Positions 1 to 7,225 of a DNA stretch of 7,225 nucleotides are shown here, one piece after another. The first letter of the stretch is position 1. Each line of letters starts with the position of its first letter. The stretch is from Eubacteriales bacterium (lineage in GTDB: Bacteria > Bacillota_A > Clostridia > Christensenellales > Aristaeellaceae), in contig JAQUXV010000129.1 in NCBI GenBank assembly GCA_028692205.1, positions 1 through 7,225 of the forward strand, given 5' to 3'. Both the position numbers and the translations under genes were made by a program. The notes under the pieces were generated by a model. It ran no database searches. It was not told the DNA's origin and was given only the letters and a program-made list of their open reading frames with translations.

Positions 1-365
1 ACCAGCACGTCCAGCACCTGCCGACCGCGGAAACGGTACATGGCCAACGCATACCCGACGATGGAAGAGAAGAACAAGCCGACCGACGTTTGCAATATCA
101 TAATGATCAGGCTGCTCTGGTACCATTTCCAGTAGATGCCGTCCCGGTAGGTGTTCAGCGACAGGTAGTTGGATAAGGAGGAGACACCCGGATCGTATTT
201 GAAACTCAAGCCAAGCCGGAGAATTTCCGTGCCGGGTTTAAGCGAGGACAGGAACATAAAGTAGAACGGCAGCATCAGCAACAGGCCCGCGGAGATCAGC
301 ATCAGCGCAAAGAGAATCCGGTAAAACGTTTTGGCGGGGCTGAAAGCTTTCACTTTTTTTTGCAT
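1..365 (-). CDS. Carbohydrate ABC transporter permease, MalG/AraQ type (partial, C-terminus off the left edge)
   Basis: Inner-membrane permease of a CUT1 sugar importer, the second of two permease subunits. About 121 N-terminal residues are visible, starting MQKKVKAFSPAKTFYRILFA. A first membrane segment spans about residues 16-40 and ends in the FLSSLKPGTE stretch typical of MalG-type proteins, where SLKP marks the start of the first outer loop. A second segment spans about residues 84-108 and is followed by the basic loop YRFRGR. The EAA loop that contacts the ATPase would lie beyond the window. The start ATG at 365 has an AGGAGGGG ribosome binding site five bases upstream. It lies inside the end of the preceding permease gene (16-base overlap), which implies translational coupling. 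The order after a binding protein and a MalF-type permease fits AraN-AraP-AraQ of Bacillus by resemblance. The exact sugar is not shown. Confidence 0.88.
   Translation of the reverse strand, partial: MQKKVKAFSPAKTFYRILFALMLISAGLLLMLPFYFMFLSSLKPGTEILRLGLSFKYDPGVSSLSNYLSLNTYRDGIYWKWYQSSLIIMILQTSVGLFFSSIVGYALAMYRFRGRQVLDVL
350..365 (-). other. 16-base permease gene overlap with slippery A AAA AAG heptamer
   Basis: Read on the minus strand, the upstream permease ends TGC AAA AAA AAG TGA while the downstream one starts ATG CAA AAA AAA GTG, one frame back. The heptamer A AAA AAG is the same as the dnaX -1 frameshift site. A Shine-Dalgarno-like AGGAGGGG lies about 11 bases upstream of it, close to the stimulatory spacing known for dnaX. 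The Shine-Dalgarno element is fully explained as the start signal of the second permease, so any frameshift or polymerase slippage that would fuse the two proteins is only a possibility. Confidence 0.4.
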
Positions 366-1270
366 GCTTTCCCCTCCTGTCGAAAGAAGCCCATCAGGGT
401 CAGCTGCAGCAGATTGACCGCGGAAACAAGCAGTAGCAGGGTAATGCCGACCGCCGAGGCGAGCCCCATATTGTTTTTATAGAAGCCCATCATGTACATG
501 TATCCGACGATGGTGCGGCCAACGCCGCCGGGGTTGCTCTGCTCCCACAGCGCGACGCTTTCGGTAAACATGGAAAAACCACCCAGCACCGTGATGGTGA
601 CCACGTAGATCATCACGGGCCGGATGCCGGGCAGCGTGATGTTCCAGAAGGATTTGATTTCGCTTGCGCCGTCGATGCGGGCCGCTTCGTAAAGCTCCTG
701 CGGTATGGCGCGGATAGCGGAGTAGAAATAAATGATATTGACGCCCATCCATCGCCACAGCGTCATCAAAATCAGCACGAAGTTGCCGCTGCCGGAGTGG
801 TTAAGCCAATCGATGCCGGGCAGGCCGATGGCGATGCAGACGCGGTTGGCCAGCGACGTATCCAGGCTGCCGAACGCCAGCCGGAAAACAATACCCGCGA
901 CGATGATGGAAGTGAGCGCCGGGATAAAATAAAGCGATTTGAAAAAATTCGGCCAAATCGCGAACTTACTGTTCAGAATTGCCGCAAATAACAACGGCAC
1001 GGGAATCAGGATGAGAAGATCCCACAGGGTGTAATTGCCGGTCGTTTGAAGCGCCATGATGTAGTTTTTGGAAAACAGCTTCCGATAATTGCTCAGTCCG
1101 ATAAAGGTGGCGTTGTCCGGGCCGTCGATCCTCTGGAAGCTCATAATAACAGATTCAATGGTCGGGTACAGATAGATCGCCAGAAAGTAGATCACGAAGG
1201 GTGCAACCAACACATAGGGCACGATTCGCGGGTCGTTGAGGCCTGTAAGCCTGCGCGTGCGCTTGTCCAA
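350..1270 (-). CDS. Carbohydrate ABC transporter permease, MalF/AraP type
   Basis: First permease subunit of the CUT1 sugar importer, a six-helix inner-membrane protein of about 306 residues. Counting from the TTG at 1270, hydrophobic segments fall at about 18-42, 83-100, 113-132, 163-186, 218-236 and 268-290. The ATPase-docking EAA loop is clear at about 195-218 (EAARIDGASE, then ITLPGIRP). Other family stretches are FIPALTSIIVAGIVFRLAFG and WRWMGVNI; these match my memory of Bacillus subtilis AraP closely, which suggests an arabino-oligosaccharide-like substrate (inference). The frame is open to a TTG at 1288, but that start would put the ribosome binding site AAGGAGGA (1278-1285) inside the gene. 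The TTG at 1270 sits seven bases after it and is preferred. The gene ends in an A8 run overlapping the next permease. Expression is probably driven from the promoter ahead of the binding-protein gene. Confidence 0.9.
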   Translation of the reverse strand: MDKRTRRLTGLNDPRIVPYVLVAPFVIYFLAIYLYPTIESVIMSFQRIDGPDNATFIGLSNYRKLFSKNYIMALQTTGNYTLWDLLILIPVPLLFAAILNSKFAIWPNFFKSLYFIPALTSIIVAGIVFRLAFGSLDTSLANRVCIAIGLPGIDWLNHSGSGNFVLILMTLWRWMGVNIIYFYSAIRAIPQELYEAARIDGASEIKSFWNITLPGIRPVMIYVVTITVLGGFSMFTESVALWEQSNPGGVGRTIVGYMYMMGFYKNNMGLASAVGITLLLLVSAVNLLQLTLMGFFRQEGKACKKK

Positions 1271-1277
1271 AACGGTA

Positions 1278-1285
1278 TCCTCCTT
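1278..1285 (-). promoter_or_regulatory. Ribosome binding site that sets the TTG start of the MalF/AraP-type permease
   Basis: AAGGAGGA on the minus strand lies seven bases before TTG at 1270. It makes the longer frame starting at 1288 unlikely, because that TTG would overlap the site. Confidence 0.75.
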
Positions 1286-1369
1286 CAAACAGGATCAGGG
1301 TTTCGGCTGGGTATTTACGGCGGGGGCAATAACGCCTCCCGCGCAACAGGAAAGGCCCGGATTCGACAT

Positions 1370-1400
1370 CTGCGCCGGAGGGGAAACTCCTCCGGCGCAG
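1370..1400 (-). promoter_or_regulatory. Intercistronic RNA hairpin between binding-protein and permease genes
   Basis: CTGCGCCGGAGG (12 bases) and its exact reverse complement flank a seven-base loop, in the 147-base gap after the binding-protein stop codon. No U-tract follows on the minus strand, so it is not a standard intrinsic terminator. In CUT1 operons, hairpins at this place (for example between malE and malF) protect the upstream message from 3' exonucleases and let the binding protein be made in excess over the permeases. That role is inferred here. Nothing else recognisable was seen in the gap apart from the ribosome binding site of the permease. Confidence 0.75.
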
Positions 1401-1417
1401 ACTAGAAGGAGATACGG

Positions 1418-2698
1418 TTACTCGGCAGCCGCTTCGCGCAGCTCGTCGGCGCAGGTCTTGGCGATTTCCGCGGGGGCCATCCGGTTGACAACCAGATCGT
1501 AAGCCATCTCGGACTTGACGATGTCCGCCGCGGTGGGGTAGAGATCCGTCAGGCAGGTGGGGGCGACGCTGTCGAGCATGGAGGAAACCACGTCGAAGAT
1601 ATCATCGCCGAAGTAATCGAAGAATTGGTTGGGCTTTGCGAGGTCTTCCGTGCCGTAGACATCCGTGCGGATGGGATCAAAGCCAAGGATATACCACTCC
1701 TGCAGGTTGCCTTCGTAGCTCAGCGTCGCATAGGCAAGGAAATCTTTAGCCAGATCGACGTTTTCGCTCGTCTTGATAACCGCGGTGCCGGTGCCGCCCA
1801 TTTGCGCGGTCTTGTAGCCGCCGTCGGACCAGGTGGGCATCGGGGCAACCTTGATCTTGCCGGCCAGATCGGGCATATAGTTGGTGAAACGGGCGGTGTA
1901 CCAGAAAGGCATAATGACGGAAGCGCAGTTGCCGGCGTTCATCCAGCCGTAGTACTCTTCCTCATGATGTCCGCCGCCGGGGGCCGCGACCGCGGTGCCC
2001 GCGTCCAGCATATCACTCATAAACTGCAGCGTATCGATGACGACCTGATCGTCCATATGCACGTTGTTGTCCGCATCCAGCCAATCGCCGCCGTGCTGGC
2101 TTACGAGCGGATAGATGCTCCAGGTATCCTTGACTTCCCAAGTGGTCATGGGCTTGCCGGTCTTTTCAAGAACGGTTTTGCCGGCCGCGGCGAAGTCGTC
2201 CCACGTTTTGATGTCCTGGTAGTTGATTCCGGCGGCCTCAAGGATTTCCGTGTTGTAGAATACCACGCAGGCGCCGATGTGATGGTCGATGCCGTAGTAT
2301 TTGCCGTCGCGGGCATAGTTGTCCAGACGCTGCATGACCAGCTTGTCTTTCAGCGGTTCAACATAGTCGTTCATATCGGCCAGTTGAATATCGCCCTTCA
2401 GGTAGTTGGCGAACATGTTGATTTCGATATCGGAGATATCGGGCGCGCCTTCGCCGGTTTGCAGGGCGATCGTCAGCTTGTTGTGCATGTCCTCGTAAGG
2501 ATAGCACTGCATGTCGATGTCCAGCTTCGGGCCGGTCGTTTGCGCATTGTACTCTTTGAGCATTTCCTGATAGAACTGCAGGTGCAGCTCCTGGAATGTC
2601 CACAGCGTCAGGTGAACCGTGTCGTCGCTTTCAGCGAAAGCGACGCTCCCCATCAGCAGCATGGTGAGAGCCAGAACCAGAGCAAGTGCCTTTTTCAC
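1418..2698 (-). CDS. Sugar ABC transporter substrate-binding protein (AraN-like, extracellular solute-binding family 1)
   Basis: Exported sugar receptor that delivers its ligand to the two permeases encoded after it; 426 residues, normal for the CUT1 family. The N-terminus is a plain signal peptide: MKK, a hydrophobic core of Ala/Leu/Val to residue 18, then an AFA cleavage motif at 20-22 followed by ESDD. No cysteine is present, so there is no lipoprotein box. The mature part begins with a beta strand LTLWTF and continues with family features such as GEGAPDISDIEI (about 83-94), FANYLKGD, and YYGIDHHIGACVVFYNTEIL in the middle. The text LTLWTFQELHLQFY and the neighbours resemble AraN of Bacillus, so arabinose-containing oligosaccharides are a candidate ligand (inference). 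The start is GTG at 2698, seven bases after AAGGAGGA (2706-2713). It is the first gene after a strong promoter and a LacI-type operator, so it is likely repressed by the divergent regulator. Confidence 0.92.
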   Translation of the reverse strand: MKKALALVLALTMLLMGSVAFAESDDTVHLTLWTFQELHLQFYQEMLKEYNAQTTGPKLDIDMQCYPYEDMHNKLTIALQTGEGAPDISDIEINMFANYLKGDIQLADMNDYVEPLKDKLVMQRLDNYARDGKYYGIDHHIGACVVFYNTEILEAAGINYQDIKTWDDFAAAGKTVLEKTGKPMTTWEVKDTWSIYPLVSQHGGDWLDADNNVHMDDQVVIDTLQFMSDMLDAGTAVAAPGGGHHEEEYYGWMNAGNCASVIMPFWYTARFTNYMPDLAGKIKVAPMPTWSDGGYKTAQMGGTGTAVIKTSENVDLAKDFLAYATLSYEGNLQEWYILGFDPIRTDVYGTEDLAKPNQFFDYFGDDIFDVVSSMLDSVAPTCLTDLYPTAADIVKSEMAYDLVVNRMAPAEIAKTCADELREAAAE

Positions 2699-2870: not shown

Positions 2871-3908
2871 ATGATGAATTCAAACCGTGTAACCCTGAAA
2901 GACCTGGCGGCTGCCTGCGGATACTCCGCCAATACGGTGTCGCGCGCCCTTCGAAACGATACCCGATTGCCGGAAGAGACGCGCAATACGATCGCGAAAA
3001 AAGCGGCGCAGATGGGCTACATCCGCAATTCTCTGGCGTCTACGCTGCGCTCCGGCACAAGCAAAACGATCGCGGTGATCGTAAACGATATCAACAACCC
3101 CTACTATTCCAACCTGTTGGGCGAGATTGACGCGTTGCTTCGCCAGAAGAATTACAACATCATGATCCTGTGTACGCAGGTGAATGACGAGCTGGCCCAG
3201 AAGATGATCCATATCGCGATTTCCCAGTCGGTGGACGGCATTCTGTTTTTTCCGCACAACAAGGTGGAGCATATTGAATATATGCGCAACAGCGGCGTGC
3301 CCTTTGTGCTGCTCGACCGCTGGATTAAAGGCGTTACGGCGGATACGGCCCGTTGTGACGACGTGATGGGCGGGCGACTGGTAGGCGAGCACCTGCTGCA
3401 GCGGGGGCATAAGAACATAGCGTATCTTGCGGGTCCCTTTGTAAACAGCTCGCAGTCCGACCGTCAGGCGGGGCTAATGACCGCGATGAAACGGGCCGGT
3501 CTTACGGAAAACAACCTGCGGGTGATTCCGTGGCAGCCGGATTTTCAAAAACCCCAGCCGGATTATATCTATCAGCTGCTGAAGCCCTATCGGTATACGG
3601 CGATTGTTGCCTACAACGACGAGCTTGCTTATTATTGCATGAACGATCTGCATTCGCATGGGATTTCGGTGCCGGAAGACGTTTCCCTGATCAGCTTTGA
3701 CCATATTCGCCGGGGGCATACCTACCTGCCGCCGTTAACCAGTGTGACGGCCGACAGCCCGGGCGTGGCGGAAGAGGCGGTTCGGATATTGCTGAACCGG
3801 ATCGAGCAAAACGATCTGCCGCCGCAGGTGGTTGTAATGCCCGTGCGGATTTACGACGAAGGAACGACGGCTTTTTTGAAAAAGCCGGATGACGAAAAAC
3901 CGTTGTAG
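2871..3908 (+). CDS. LacI-family transcriptional repressor
   Basis: DNA-binding regulator of 345 residues, usual for the family. The helix-turn-helix is at about residues 7-28 (VTLKDLAAACGYSANTVSRA). The hinge helix is at about 53-62 (NSLASTLRSG), with the leucine that intercalates at the central CG of LacI-type operators. The effector domain follows from about 66 (IAVIVNDINNPYYS) and keeps ligand-pocket landmarks: Arg198 in SDRQAG, Asn-Asp at 249-250 in YND, and Asp277 in ISFDH. The frame is open back to an ATG at 2832, but that start would fall in the presumed promoter and has no ribosome binding site. GGAG at 2862-2865 supports ATG 2871 (five bases) or ATG 2874 (eight bases). It is divergent from the sugar importer and probably represses it through GGTTAACGTTAACC. 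The inducer is unknown, likely the imported sugar or a derivative. No strong terminator follows. Confidence 0.93.
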   Translation: MMNSNRVTLKDLAAACGYSANTVSRALRNDTRLPEETRNTIAKKAAQMGYIRNSLASTLRSGTSKTIAVIVNDINNPYYSNLLGEIDALLRQKNYNIMILCTQVNDELAQKMIHIAISQSVDGILFFPHNKVEHIEYMRNSGVPFVLLDRWIKGVTADTARCDDVMGGRLVGEHLLQRGHKNIAYLAGPFVNSSQSDRQAGLMTAMKRAGLTENNLRVIPWQPDFQKPQPDYIYQLLKPYRYTAIVAYNDELAYYCMNDLHSHGISVPEDVSLISFDHIRRGHTYLPPLTSVTADSPGVAEEAVRILLNRIEQNDLPPQVVVMPVRIYDEGTTAFLKKPDDEKPL

Positions 3909-3976: not shown

Positions 3977-4004
3977 TTGACAGCATGCGCTTTCCTGTGA
4001 TAAC
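3977..4004 (+). promoter_or_regulatory. Probable promoter of the ilvBNC operon and its leader
   Basis: A consensus -35 TTGACA (3977-3982) is followed after 16 bases by GATAAC (3999-4004), a four-of-six match to the -10 box, preceded by TG. An 18-base spacing to TAACGT is the alternative. Transcription would start near 4011, about 24 bases before the leader-peptide ATG. The stretch 3909-3976 before it holds no recognised gene, only weak hairpins without a U-tract. Confidence 0.6.
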
Positions 4005-4034
4005 GTATTCCCAATCACCGAAAAGGAGCCTTGT

Positions 4035-4160
4035 ATGAACCATTTTAGCCTGGCCCTAAGCATTATTATTATTAGCGTTGTCGTCCTAGTACAGGTACTT
4101 GTACTGGTCGGCAACGTTGTTTTGCGTATACCTAGGGTTGGGAGATTGGTGAAAGCATAG
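4035..4160 (+). CDS. ilv operon leader peptide (attenuation peptide, 41 aa)
   Basis: Small gene too short for routine calling: ATG at 4035, stop TAG at 4158, with AGGAG (4024-4028) six bases upstream. Of 41 residues, 23 are Val (11), Leu (7) or Ile (5). Residues 10-25 read IIIISVVVLVQVLVLV, so 14 of 16 are branched-chain amino acids, the end products of the operon that follows. Several are written with codons that look scarce in the GC-rich neighbours (CTA twice, GTA three times, ATA once), which would sharpen stalling. The product is probably unstable and without function of its own; its translation is the sensor. When charged Ile, Val or Leu tRNA is short, the ribosome stalls and changes the folding of the RNA. 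This follows the known ilv and ivb leader mechanism in Enterobacteria. It is hydrophobic, so a tiny membrane protein is a less likely alternative. Confidence 0.88.
   Translation: MNHFSLALSIIIISVVVLVQVLVLVGNVVLRIPRVGRLVKA
4073..4119 (+). promoter_or_regulatory. Leader hairpin 1:2 (pause / protector stem) inside the leader peptide
   Basis: The arms 4073-4093 and 4100-4119 pair across a six-base loop (GGTACT). The inner stem AGTACA/TGTACT and the outer stem GTTG/CAAC are joined by further pairs, with one U-U mismatch (4084/4108) and one bulged U (4087). I count about 20 pairs including three G-U. The 5' arm covers the Val codons that follow the Ile run, so a ribosome stalled on Ile or Val codons would open it and release the 3' arm. 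Confidence 0.72.
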
Positions 4161-4193
4161 CCTCACAAAGCATGCTCATACCCCCCGAACCGT
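4103..4193 (+). promoter_or_regulatory. Candidate antiterminator pairing (region 2 with region 3)
   Basis: Bases 4103-4111 (ACUGGUCGG) can pair with 4185-4193 (CCGAACCGU) in eight pairs with two single-base bulges (U4105 and A4188). This uses the released second arm of the leader hairpin and sequesters most of the first arm of the terminator. A competing possibility is GGUUGGG (4136-4142) with CCCGAACC, seven pairs and one bulged G. Which one forms cannot be decided by eye. Confidence 0.45.
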
Positions 4194-4219
4194 GGCATAC
4201 GGTTCGGGGGGATTTTTTT
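4181..4219 (+). terminator. Intrinsic terminator serving as ilv attenuator
   Basis: CCCCCCGAACCGT (4181-4193), loop GGCAT, then the exact complement ACGGTTCGGGGGG (4199-4211), one A, and seven T (4213-4219). The 13-bp GC-rich stem with a U-tract is a textbook intrinsic terminator. It lies 20 bases after the leader stop codon and 18 bases before the ilvB start codon, on the same strand, so it must be conditionally bypassed for the operon to be expressed. Confidence 0.92.
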
Positions 4220-4222
4220 ATC

Positions 4223-4230
4223 GGGAGGAG
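4223..4230 (+). promoter_or_regulatory. Ribosome binding site that sets the ilvB start
   Basis: GGGAGGAG lies seven bases before ATG 4238 and directly after the attenuator U-tract. It rules against the in-frame ATG at 4172, whose coding region would run through the terminator hairpin. Confidence 0.85.
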
Positions 4231-4237
4231 CGAGACG

Positions 4238-5905
4238 ATGAAGCTTACCGGCGCGCAGATTCTGATGGAGATTTTTAAGGAGAATGAGGTAAACACGATC
4301 TTTGGCTATCCGGGCGGCGCGGTGCTGAATATCTACGACGAGATTTACAAGGCGTCGGGGTGGCTTAAGCATGTGCTTACCTGCCACGAGCAGGGAGCCG
4401 CGCACGCCGCGGACGGCTATGCCCGCGCCACCGGCAAGACCGGCGTGGTGCTGGCTACCTCCGGCCCGGGCGCGACCAACCTGGTTACCGGCATTGCCAC
4501 CGCCTATCTGGATTCCACGCCGATGGTCGCCATCACCGGCAACGTGGCCTGCCCGCTGATCGGCCGCGACAGCTTTCAGGAAGTGGATATCACAGGGGTC
4601 ACCATGCCGATCACCAAGCACAACTATATGGTGAAGGATGTTCGCAAACTGGCCGATACCCTGCGCGAGGCTTTCTGCATCGCAGCGTCCGGCCGCCCCG
4701 GCCCGGTGTTGGTGGACATTCCCAAGGATGTGCAGGTGGCGACGTGCGAGTTTACGCCCGCGGGGAAACCGTGCGGCGTGAAAGCCAAAGCGCCAGACCC
4801 CGAAGCGGTGAAACGCGCCGTGGAGTTGATCGCCGGGGCTGAGCGCCCCATCCTCTACGCGGGCGGTGGCGTGATTGCCGCGGGCGCGGGCGAGGAACTG
4901 CTCAAGCTCGCCGAGACGATCGGCGCGCCCATCGGCGCCAGCATGATGGGGCTTTCCGCCGTGCCCAACGACCATCCGCTCTTCCTCGGCATGACGGGCA
5001 TGCACGGGCGTTACGCCGCCATCAAGTCGCTGGACCGCGCCGACCTCATCATCGCGGTGGGCACGCGTTTCTCGGATCGCGCCACGGGCAACAAGCAGGA
5101 GTTCTCCAAAAACCACAAGGTGCTCCATATCGACATCGACCCTGCCGAGATCAGCAAGAACATCCCCGCCTACGTGGCGCTGGTGGCGGATGTGAAAGAA
5201 GCGCTGATCGCGCTCAACGCCGCGGGCCTCCCGCACGCCAACCCCGAGTGGCTTACGGAAGTGCAGGCCCTGAAAAGCGCGCCCGACAACCACCTGACCA
5301 TGAATGAAAACGTACTCAACCCCGAGATGGTGCTGCGCGCCGTAAACAAGCGCCTGCCCGCGGACAGCCCTGTGGCGACCGACGTGGGCCAGCACCAGAT
5401 GTGGGTGGCACAGTATTACAGTTTCGGCAAGCCCCGCACCTTCATCACCTCCGGCGGCCTCGGCACCATGGGTTTCGGCATGGGCGCGGCCATCGGCGCG
5501 TGTGTCGGCACGGGGCTTAAAAAGACCGTGCTCGTCACCAGCGACGGCAGCTTCCACATGAACATGAACGAGCTTGCCACGGCGGTGGAAAACCGCCTGC
5601 CGCTGATCGTGCTGGTGCTGAACAACTGTGTGTTGGGCATGGTGCGCCAGTGGCAGACGATGTTTTTCGACCATCGGTACGCCAGCACCACGCTGAACCG
5701 CGCGACTGATTACTGTTTGTTGGCGCAGGCGTTCGGCGCCAAAGGGCTGCGGCTGGAAAGCAAGGATAGGCTCGACGCGTTGCTGGACAAGGCTTTCGCC
5801 CTGCCCGGCCCGGTGGTGGTGGATGTGCGCATCGACCGCGACGAGATGGTGCTGCCCATGATTCCGCCCAACGGAACGATCAAAGACATGATTTTAAGGG
5901 GGTAA
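4238..5905 (+). CDS. ilvB: Acetolactate synthase (acetohydroxyacid synthase), catalytic large subunit
   Basis: Thiamine-diphosphate enzyme joining two pyruvates to 2-acetolactate, or pyruvate with 2-oxobutyrate to 2-aceto-2-hydroxybutyrate, the first common step of Val, Leu and Ile synthesis in the cytoplasm. It has 555 residues, usual for the family. The N-terminal pyrimidine-binding domain carries GYPGGAVL (23-30) and the catalytic glutamate Glu51 in CHEQGAAHAADG, then SGPGATN and RDSFQEVDITG. The central FAD-type domain has GRYAAIKSLDRADLIIAVG. The C-terminal domain has GGLGTMGFGMGAAIG and the diphosphate/Mg motif, here SDG (435-437) with Asn-Asn at 462-463 after 24 residues. The usual motif begins with Gly, so Ser435 is a small deviation while Asp436 is kept. 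LGMVRQWQ follows as in biosynthetic synthases, not catabolic AlsS. It is followed by ilvN after four bases and is controlled by the upstream attenuator. Confidence 0.96.
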   Translation: MKLTGAQILMEIFKENEVNTIFGYPGGAVLNIYDEIYKASGWLKHVLTCHEQGAAHAADGYARATGKTGVVLATSGPGATNLVTGIATAYLDSTPMVAITGNVACPLIGRDSFQEVDITGVTMPITKHNYMVKDVRKLADTLREAFCIAASGRPGPVLVDIPKDVQVATCEFTPAGKPCGVKAKAPDPEAVKRAVELIAGAERPILYAGGGVIAAGAGEELLKLAETIGAPIGASMMGLSAVPNDHPLFLGMTGMHGRYAAIKSLDRADLIIAVGTRFSDRATGNKQEFSKNHKVLHIDIDPAEISKNIPAYVALVADVKEALIALNAAGLPHANPEWLTEVQALKSAPDNHLTMNENVLNPEMVLRAVNKRLPADSPVATDVGQHQMWVAQYYSFGKPRTFITSGGLGTMGFGMGAAIGACVGTGLKKTVLVTSDGSFHMNMNELATAVENRLPLIVLVLNNCVLGMVRQWQTMFFDHRYASTTLNRATDYCLLAQAFGAKGLRLESKDRLDALLDKAFALPGPVVVDVRIDRDEMVLPMIPPNGTIKDMILRG

Positions 5906-5909
5906 GAGC

Positions 5910-6422
5910 ATGGAATCCGCAAGGCTGATCCTGTCGATGCTGGTCAATAACGAGTCCGGCGTCCTCACCCGAATTTCCGGGCTGTTTGCGCGGCGCGGCT
6001 TCAATATCGACAGTCTCTCCGTCGGAGAAACACAGGATTCCCACGTGTCCCGCATCACCATACAGGCAGCGGGGGACGATTATGTACGCGACCAGCTCGT
6101 GCACCAGCTGGAAAAGTTGCACGACGTTCTGGTGGTGGAACCCATGGACCTGAGCAACATTGTGGCGCGCGAACTGCTGCTGGTTAAGGTGCGGGCCGAG
6201 CCCGACACCCGCAGCCAGGTGCTGGACGCGGTTACGGTGTTCCGCGCCAAGGTGATCGACCTGACGCCCGCCACCATGACCATGGAGCTTACGGGGGAAC
6301 AAACCAAACTGGACGCGTTTATCCACTTTCTGGAACCACTGGGGATCCTGGAGGTATGCCGCACCGGTATTACCGCCATCGGCCGGGGTAACTACACGCT
6401 TACCAAAAATGAGGAGGAATAA
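5910..6422 (+). CDS. ilvN: Acetolactate synthase, regulatory small subunit
   Basis: Regulatory partner of the large subunit; it raises its activity and gives feedback inhibition by valine. The 170 residues match the usual 160-170. The N-terminal ACT domain (about 4-78) begins LILSMLVNNESGVLTRISGL, with the NESG turn (14-17) that forms the valine site in IlvH/IlvN proteins, then FARRGFNIDSLSVGETQD. A C-terminal domain (about 85-160) includes ARELLLVKV and ends GITAIGRGNYTL. The ATG at 5910 lies four bases after the ilvB stop, and AGGGGG at the end of ilvB (5897-5902) is its ribosome binding site, so the two subunits are coupled and made together. The symbol ilvH is used for the same protein in some genomes. 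Confidence 0.95.
   Translation: MESARLILSMLVNNESGVLTRISGLFARRGFNIDSLSVGETQDSHVSRITIQAAGDDYVRDQLVHQLEKLHDVLVVEPMDLSNIVARELLLVKVRAEPDTRSQVLDAVTVFRAKVIDLTPATMTMELTGEQTKLDAFIHFLEPLGILEVCRTGITAIGRGNYTLTKNEEE

Positions 6423-7225
<803 letters not shown>

Follow-up and report, generated by a model that had tools for sequence, protein, structure and literature searches.

How is transcription of the ilvBNC operon controlled in this bacterium? The window, which is the whole stretch of 7,225 nucleotides analysed here, holds at 4011-4237 a short leader in front of the operon, and the original prediction took this leader for a peptide-based transcription attenuator in a Clostridia-like host. Comparison with related genomes supports such a host. 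It also lends good support to the attenuator, through the recurrence of leader and terminator in related upstream regions and through the RNA pairings of 65 cassettes. On this evidence the leader is very probably a classical ribosome-mediated transcription attenuator that senses the supply of branched-chain amino acids. Ribosome-mediated attenuation is a textbook mechanism. The observations concern the anatomy of the leader, its recurrence in relatives, the pairing potentials of its RNA, and its association with a lineage of ilvB.

The controlled gene is ilvB, which encodes the large subunit of acetolactate synthase (4238-5905; TIGR00118). It is followed by ilvN, encoding the small subunit (5910-6422; TIGR00119), and by ilvC, encoding ketol-acid reductoisomerase, which runs off the window (6426-7225; TIGR00465). 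These genes and all features of the leader lie on the forward strand. Both ilvN and ilvC follow ilvB in 11/11 relatives checked, and in one of the close relatives (L072) the order is ilvB-ilvN-ilvC-ilvD-leuA.

The leader peptide is encoded by an open reading frame at 4035-4160, with 41 codons followed by TAG (MNHFSLALSIIIISVVVLVQVLVLVGNVVLRIPRVGRLVKA). Isoleucine, leucine and valine account for 23 of its residues, and a Shine-Dalgarno sequence, AAGGAG (4023-4028), is found 6 nt 5' of the ATG, so that the predicted frame, its good ribosome binding site and its codon count are all borne out. Inside the Val/Leu codons the RNA is predicted to fold into a hairpin of the pause type (4073-4119), with an energy of -25.8 kcal/mol for 4070-4121, which confirms the strong hairpin expected within the frame. 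Some of its pairs are changed on both sides among six close leaders.

Downstream of the frame is an intrinsic terminator (4181-4219), consisting of a 14-bp stem (4181-4211) with a loop of 3, then an A and seven T (4213-4219). Its energy is -27.4 kcal/mol, and two of its pairs are changed on both sides in the six-leader alignment. The terminator and its seven T had been foreseen correctly; the length of its stem had been given as 13 bp, where the scan gives 14 pairs. The Shine-Dalgarno sequence of ilvB, GGGAGGAG, can be read directly at 4223-4230. Taken as a whole, the leader RNA folds more stably than its shuffled versions (z = -5.4; 0/200 shuffles equally stable).

Upstream of the frame, a promoter-like element can be read directly at 3977-4006. 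It consists of TTGACA (3977-3982), an 18-nt spacer ending in TGA, and a -10-like TAACGT (4001-4006). The first hexamer is a perfect -35 and the second matches the -10 consensus at 3/6 positions. A consensus promoter scan of the window lists none, its -10 rule requiring four matches, but TTGACA, 18 nt, and TGn just 5' of TAnnnT were seen by eye in 4/4 close relatives inspected (L002, L003, L072 and L004). It is best regarded as a candidate promoter.

The RNA between promoter and ilvB contains four segments that can pair in alternative ways. For region 1 (4049-4060) the partner is the 5' half of region 2, as found by folding 4047-4145 and in a six-leader consensus, where several of the pairs are disrupted in some rows. 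Region 2 (4132-4158), made up of the last codons of the frame and its stop, is the 5' strand of the predicted antiterminator, and region 3 (4172-4195), which overlaps the 5' arm of the terminator, is its 3' strand; both were assigned from folds, including that of the stalled state. Three pairings result: 4049-4058 with 4133-4142 (1:2, by folding), bases in 4132-4158 with bases in 4172-4195 (2:3; -22.5 kcal/mol for 4130-4195), and 4181-4194 with 4198-4211 (3:4; -27.4 kcal/mol). They share bases and are mutually exclusive. Since the terminator is more stable than the antiterminator, switching must be kinetic.

From this layout we infer where transcripts end, where the ribosome sits and stalls, and how the switch responds to Ile, Val and Leu. 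RNA polymerase would start near 4013, and a ribosome would translate the 41-codon frame. A shortage of charged Ile, Val or Leu tRNA would stall the ribosome in codons 10-30, from the run of ATT at 4062. A ribosome covers about 15 nt on either side of its A site. One that is stalled at the Ile run would cover region 1 and leave region 2 free to pair with region 3, and transcription would run on into ilvBNC. With a good supply, the ribosome would reach the stop codon (4158-4160) and cover the 3' half of region 2, so that region 3 would pair with region 4 and transcription would end near 4219. If the frame is not translated at all, regions 1 and 2 would pair with each other and the terminator would form.

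Conservation of an Ile/Leu/Val-rich frame and a terminator upstream of related ilvB genes, with compensatory changes in the RNA, had been proposed as a check on the attenuator. From 302 confirmed loci that the IlvB protein of the window found in named genomes, the best 80 were taken as relatives, a sample that leans to close kin. The upstream regions of the window and 79 of these loci were compared (n = 80), leaving out L075, whose match begins at residue 103, and L081-L087, which are repeats. A frame counted as a leader if it had 8 or more Ile/Leu/Val codons within a stretch of 12 and its start score was 4 or higher, and its terminator had to lie at most 130 nt from the leader stop. By this rule a leader frame is present in 53/80 regions (52/79 related loci and the window), and the frame together with a terminator in 51/80. 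Two loci with too little upstream DNA, L005 (176 nt) and L033 (97 nt), are scored as misses in these counts.

The leader frame alone is found in 126/8000 dinucleotide shuffles and in 38/2106 other 500-nt stretches of the same loci, counting both strands; as the relatives are not independent, these rates describe an excess and not a probability. When 10 or more Ile/Leu/Val codons within 12 were required, at an unchanged start score, 5000 dinucleotide-shuffled versions of the 500 nt 5' of ilvB in the window contained no such frame. The five rows nearest to the window in a tree of IlvB proteins (L001, L002, L003, L072 and L004) all have leader and terminator. L005, which is congeneric with L001 and is cut off upstream, retains a partial Ile/Leu/Val-rich frame and a terminator. 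A leader without a terminator assigned by the rule is found in L007 and L038, and L035 falls just below the start score. Some loci labelled as having no leader are probably missed leaders.

As to compensatory change, the six-leader alignment of the window group has 8/48 pairs changed on both sides, others being broken in some rows, and a covariation term near zero (-0.02). When stalling is placed in the middle of the codon cluster, the same antiterminator layout is seen by eye in 5/6 leaders of the window group, the stalled-state fold of L072 differing from the rest. Other groups have different but equivalent antiterminators, in which the last codons of the frame pair with the terminator arm. 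Examples are GAGUUUUACC with GGUAAAACUC in L006, and GUACUGCC with GGCAGUAC in L023.

An equilibrium pairing measure places the stalled state in the top 5% of shuffles in only 12/55 cassettes, and the contrast between the stalled ribosome and the ribosome at the stop is partly trivial, because less RNA is free at the stop. Partner swaps and shuffles of region 2 were therefore used. After 4 repeated leaders were removed from 69, the tests covered 65 distinct cassettes. The energies of the matched 2:3 pairings are stronger than in all 20,000 partner swaps, and the same holds for the 1:2 pairings. Against shuffled region 2, the total 2:3 energy has z = -8.9, and 0/300 shuffle totals reach the real one. 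Individually, 18/65 cassettes are at or below 5% in this test, while more than half of the shuffles are better in 13/65; a whole-fold test places 22/55 cassettes at or below 5%.

Within the window group itself, the 2:3 duplex goes beyond chance in 0/6 leaders when region 2 is shuffled, the duplex being reached by 51% of shuffles in the window, 27% in L001, 89% in L002, 68% in L003, 29% in L004 and 33% in L072. Only L004 stands out in the whole-fold test (3/300, compared with 31/300 in the window and 153/300 in L002), and only L004 is within 5% in the arm-pairing test, where the window has 12/100. Since this group is not beyond chance by itself, the case for the putative antiterminator of the window draws on the wider set and on its position.

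Selection on the codons was examined in 18 related leader pairs, with 92 aligned one-base codon differences that have Ile, Leu or Val on at least one side. These comprise 42 synonymous differences, 22 from one of the three residues to another, and 28 to or from something else. Ile/Leu/Val is thus lost in 28/92, where a model giving every single-base change the same likelihood predicts 48% (p = 0.0004). For amino-acid changes alone, retention is borderline (22 kept, 28 lost, p = 0.06).

Known RNA families were also sought. The leader of the window has no T-box motif and no covariance match to the T-box family RF00230, so the reported absence of a T-box landmark holds. An Rfam scan of the window at E up to 1 finds no family over the leader; its three weak matches all lie elsewhere, below their gathering scores. 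At the gathering score, 16 leader loci contain no leader family, the only matches being the rRNA and tRNA of L029. The Rfam model of ilvB-OMG does not match the leaders scanned. On 8 more leader loci (E up to 0.1), only sub-threshold matches were found, two of them to His_leader. The latter cover the ilv attenuator in L016 (314-455) and L017 (3820-3960) with 36-37 bits, the gathering score being 49, and presumably reflect shared architecture.

These results bear on other explanations of the leader. The frame could encode a genuine small hydrophobic membrane protein that the terminator only separates from ilvB; the peptide is indeed strongly hydrophobic with a basic tail, and its frame is under some selection. 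Its composition argues otherwise, since the 20-residue cores of 55 leaders are 67% Ile/Leu/Val and 13% Ala/Phe/Gly/Met/Trp/Cys, whereas for the one protein compared, the permease encoded in the window, its most hydrophobic segments have 48% and 27%. The peptide tails also differ among groups, and over the set the bases of the tail pair with the terminator arm of their own locus, which together make a membrane protein very unlikely. Also very unlikely is a terminator regulated by a protein or small ligand, with the frame incidental. T-boxes at other ilvB genes of this order could suggest it, as could the riboswitch control of ilvB described for other bacteria in excerpts of one paper (PMC10272879). 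Against it are the lack of any Rfam match over the leader of the window or, at gathering score, of the 16 loci, and the fact that the feature common to the groups is the Ile/Leu/Val-rich frame itself.

The terminator might also belong to the gene upstream, leaving the leader as a chance frame. The window carries a sugar-type ABC transporter permease and binding protein (350-2698, reverse strand) divergent from a LacI-type regulator (2874-3908, forward strand), which together form an ordinary carbohydrate-uptake locus. The regulator gene ends at 3908, about 270 nt 5' of the stem. This explanation is almost certainly wrong, as the LacI-type and sugar-binding genes of the window are absent from the 4 kb 5' of ilvB in 11/11 relatives checked, yet the leader recurs 5' of ilvB, and the shuffles give a low chance rate for the frame.

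Attenuators of this kind have been described elsewhere. Ribosome-mediated ilv attenuation has been tested in Listeria monocytogenes, where Rli60, the ilv-leu leader, resembles the leader of the window in its peptide rich in branched-chain amino acids, its segments 1-4, its 2:3 antiterminator and 3:4 terminator, and its occurrence in Bacillota; it differs in having a 13-residue peptide before ilvD instead of 41 residues before ilvB, and in the action of CodY above it (excerpts of PMC5864092). In Staphylococcus aureus, a leucine-rich attenuator of ilvD is supported by suppressor mutations and likewise has an Ile/Leu-rich leader peptide and a terminator. In the antiterminator proposed there, the terminator stem stays intact and the poly-U is sequestered, whereas that of the window would re-pair region 3 (excerpts of PMC5794164). 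A review, as far as its excerpts go, has ilv leader attenuation predicted in Lactococcus and Streptococcus and suggests that leader attenuation is common in Gram-positive bacteria (PMC6123439). To call the attenuator uncommon or undescribed in Bacillota, as the original prediction did, is thus too strong (PMC5864092, PMC5794164, PMC6123439).

Outside this phylum, the ilvB and ilvGMEDA leaders of E. coli encode 32-residue peptides with 11 and 15 branched-chain residues and act by classical attenuation; the likeness to the window is one of layout across different phyla (excerpts of PMC6123439). The Corynebacterium ilvB-II, ilvB-OMG and Leptospira ilvB motifs also place an upstream frame rich in branched-chain amino acids and stems before ilvB. 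A terminator is present in the Corynebacterium motif, as in the window, with a frame of usually 15-17 codons instead of 41, and the same 2023 paper suggests, in its excerpts, that such attenuation is a common way of regulating ilvB (PMC10272879). According to excerpts of other work, changing the candidate codons of a similar ilvB leader in Streptomyces coelicolor was without effect (PMC1262725), a result that by analogy may count against an attenuator in the window. Exchange of sensors has a precedent in a 2010 terminator survey, the excerpts of which report a histidine leader peptide replacing a T-box in bacilli (PMC2965389).

A T-box, like the proposed attenuator, senses tRNA charging. A further set of 51 ilvB loci was taken from the family and order around L002, in drawn samples of 100 and 248 genomes. 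Leader and terminator are present in 14 (3 being repeats of earlier loci) and a T-box motif in another 14 (1 repeat), with L120, L131 and L134, which have 58, 151 and 3 nt of upstream DNA, scored as misses. Rfam places a T-box 5' of ilvB at gathering score in 5/20 such loci (L089, L090, L091, L122 and L126). A sixth match, in L104, lies on the other strand and not 5' of ilvB, and was left uncounted. Leader peptide and T-box thus alternate at one gene, ilvB, within this family and order, RF00230 preceding ilvB in more distant relatives and not at the locus of the window.

The same pattern appears in the IlvB tree, built with FastTree from 122 proteins and rooted at its midpoint after L119 and L121 were dropped as identical. 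One side (72 rows) has 54 leaders, 15 loci with neither, 1 T-box and 2 unlabelled rows; the other (50 rows) has 17 T-boxes, 26 with neither and 7 leaders. The labels are clustered, with 15 changes compared with a shuffled mean of 40.3. They are also patchy: branches with good support require 10 or more changes, and simple descent from a single origin is therefore not established. Five close-relative genomes have 8-12 T-box matches each at E up to 0.001; in 3/5 there are matches that pass the family cut-off, and none adjoins ilvB by coordinates. CodY was not found in 12/12 related genomes, which are mostly metagenome-assembled and possibly incomplete; the control search was positive in Bacillus subtilis and Lactococcus lactis.

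Leaders also occur with closely related ilvB genes in other phyla. For the order of L013, labelled Lentisphaerae, 47 genomes were searched and 30 of the ilvB loci found there were examined. The leader is present in 11/11 loci whose protein is at least 71% identical to that of L013, 10 of which were already in the 302-locus set and one of which (L161) has a start score of 3, the cut elsewhere being 4. It is present in 1/19 more distant homologues (43-55% identity), among which L172 has only 182 nt of upstream DNA and L177 lacks a clear start. Before another distant ilvB of this order, L166 has a short Val-rich frame, MKKVVVVQLVVVSGTVNA, and a terminator (-218 to -161), possibly an independent attenuator. 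For the order of L029, labelled Spirochaetales, the leader is found in 5/5 loci with at least 75% identity, all already in the 302-locus set, and in 0/25 more distant homologues, examined among many more matches in 146 genomes. On this Spirochaetales-labelled contig, tRNA, 23S and 5S rRNA genes lie directly 5' of the ilv leader (L029:224-3640).

Binning errors are possible, most Lentisphaerota and Spirochaetota records being metagenome-assembled, but the 5.7-Mb contig of L017 belongs to Oligosphaera ethanolica strain DSM 24202. The simplest reading of these sequences would be that the leader was transferred together with ilvB. A search for plasmids carrying ilvB gave a single distant partial match.

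No leader-peptide ilv case from Clostridia or Lentisphaerota, and no serial one, was found in open-licence PMC full text. We found no description of how prevalent the attenuator is in one Clostridia IlvB lineage, T-boxes being frequent among the more distant relatives of that lineage, or of the attenuator alongside closely related ilvB genes in Lentisphaerota and Spirochaetota. With this set, ribosome-mediated attenuation of the branched-chain amino acid pathway would also cover a broad branch of Clostridia, most of it uncultured, in genomes where T-box matches occur as well and the search for CodY was negative. It offers natural replicates of a switch between two tRNA-charging sensors at one gene, and of a regulator apparently transferred together with its own operon. 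Oligosphaera ethanolica DSM 24202 provides a named strain with the attenuator, where testing is possible.

Two leader-terminator cassettes stand in series 5' of ilvB, from about -420 to -45, in three loci of Lentisphaerota/Verrucomicrobiota (L012, L013 and L021). A tandem rule had flagged 6/80 loci. L010 was rejected, its first frame resembling the tail of a preceding gene that is followed by a promoter, as were L032 and L057, whose first cassettes are weak. In the three loci kept, 102/178, 113/184 and 110/184 aligned positions agree between the paired cassettes. Their alignments score 112-131, compared with at most 77 in 200 single-base shuffles each, and the pairs therefore look like duplications. 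In L021 the second leader lacks a clear Shine-Dalgarno sequence.

The attenuator may be a heritable module of one IlvB lineage. It would have taken the place of T-boxes at ilvB within Clostridia, or given way to them, travelled with ilvB into Lentisphaerota/Verrucomicrobiota and Spirochaetota, and there been duplicated in series. Because the tree labels are patchy, we hold this larger account evenly in the balance. If it is true, serial attenuators must be passed by the polymerase one after another. In three other loci (L011, L022 and L158), the interval from attenuator to ilvB holds a second frame rich in Leu and Val (about -178 to -25); no terminator is assigned after it by the rule, and its peptide begins with MKSKM behind a strong Shine-Dalgarno sequence.
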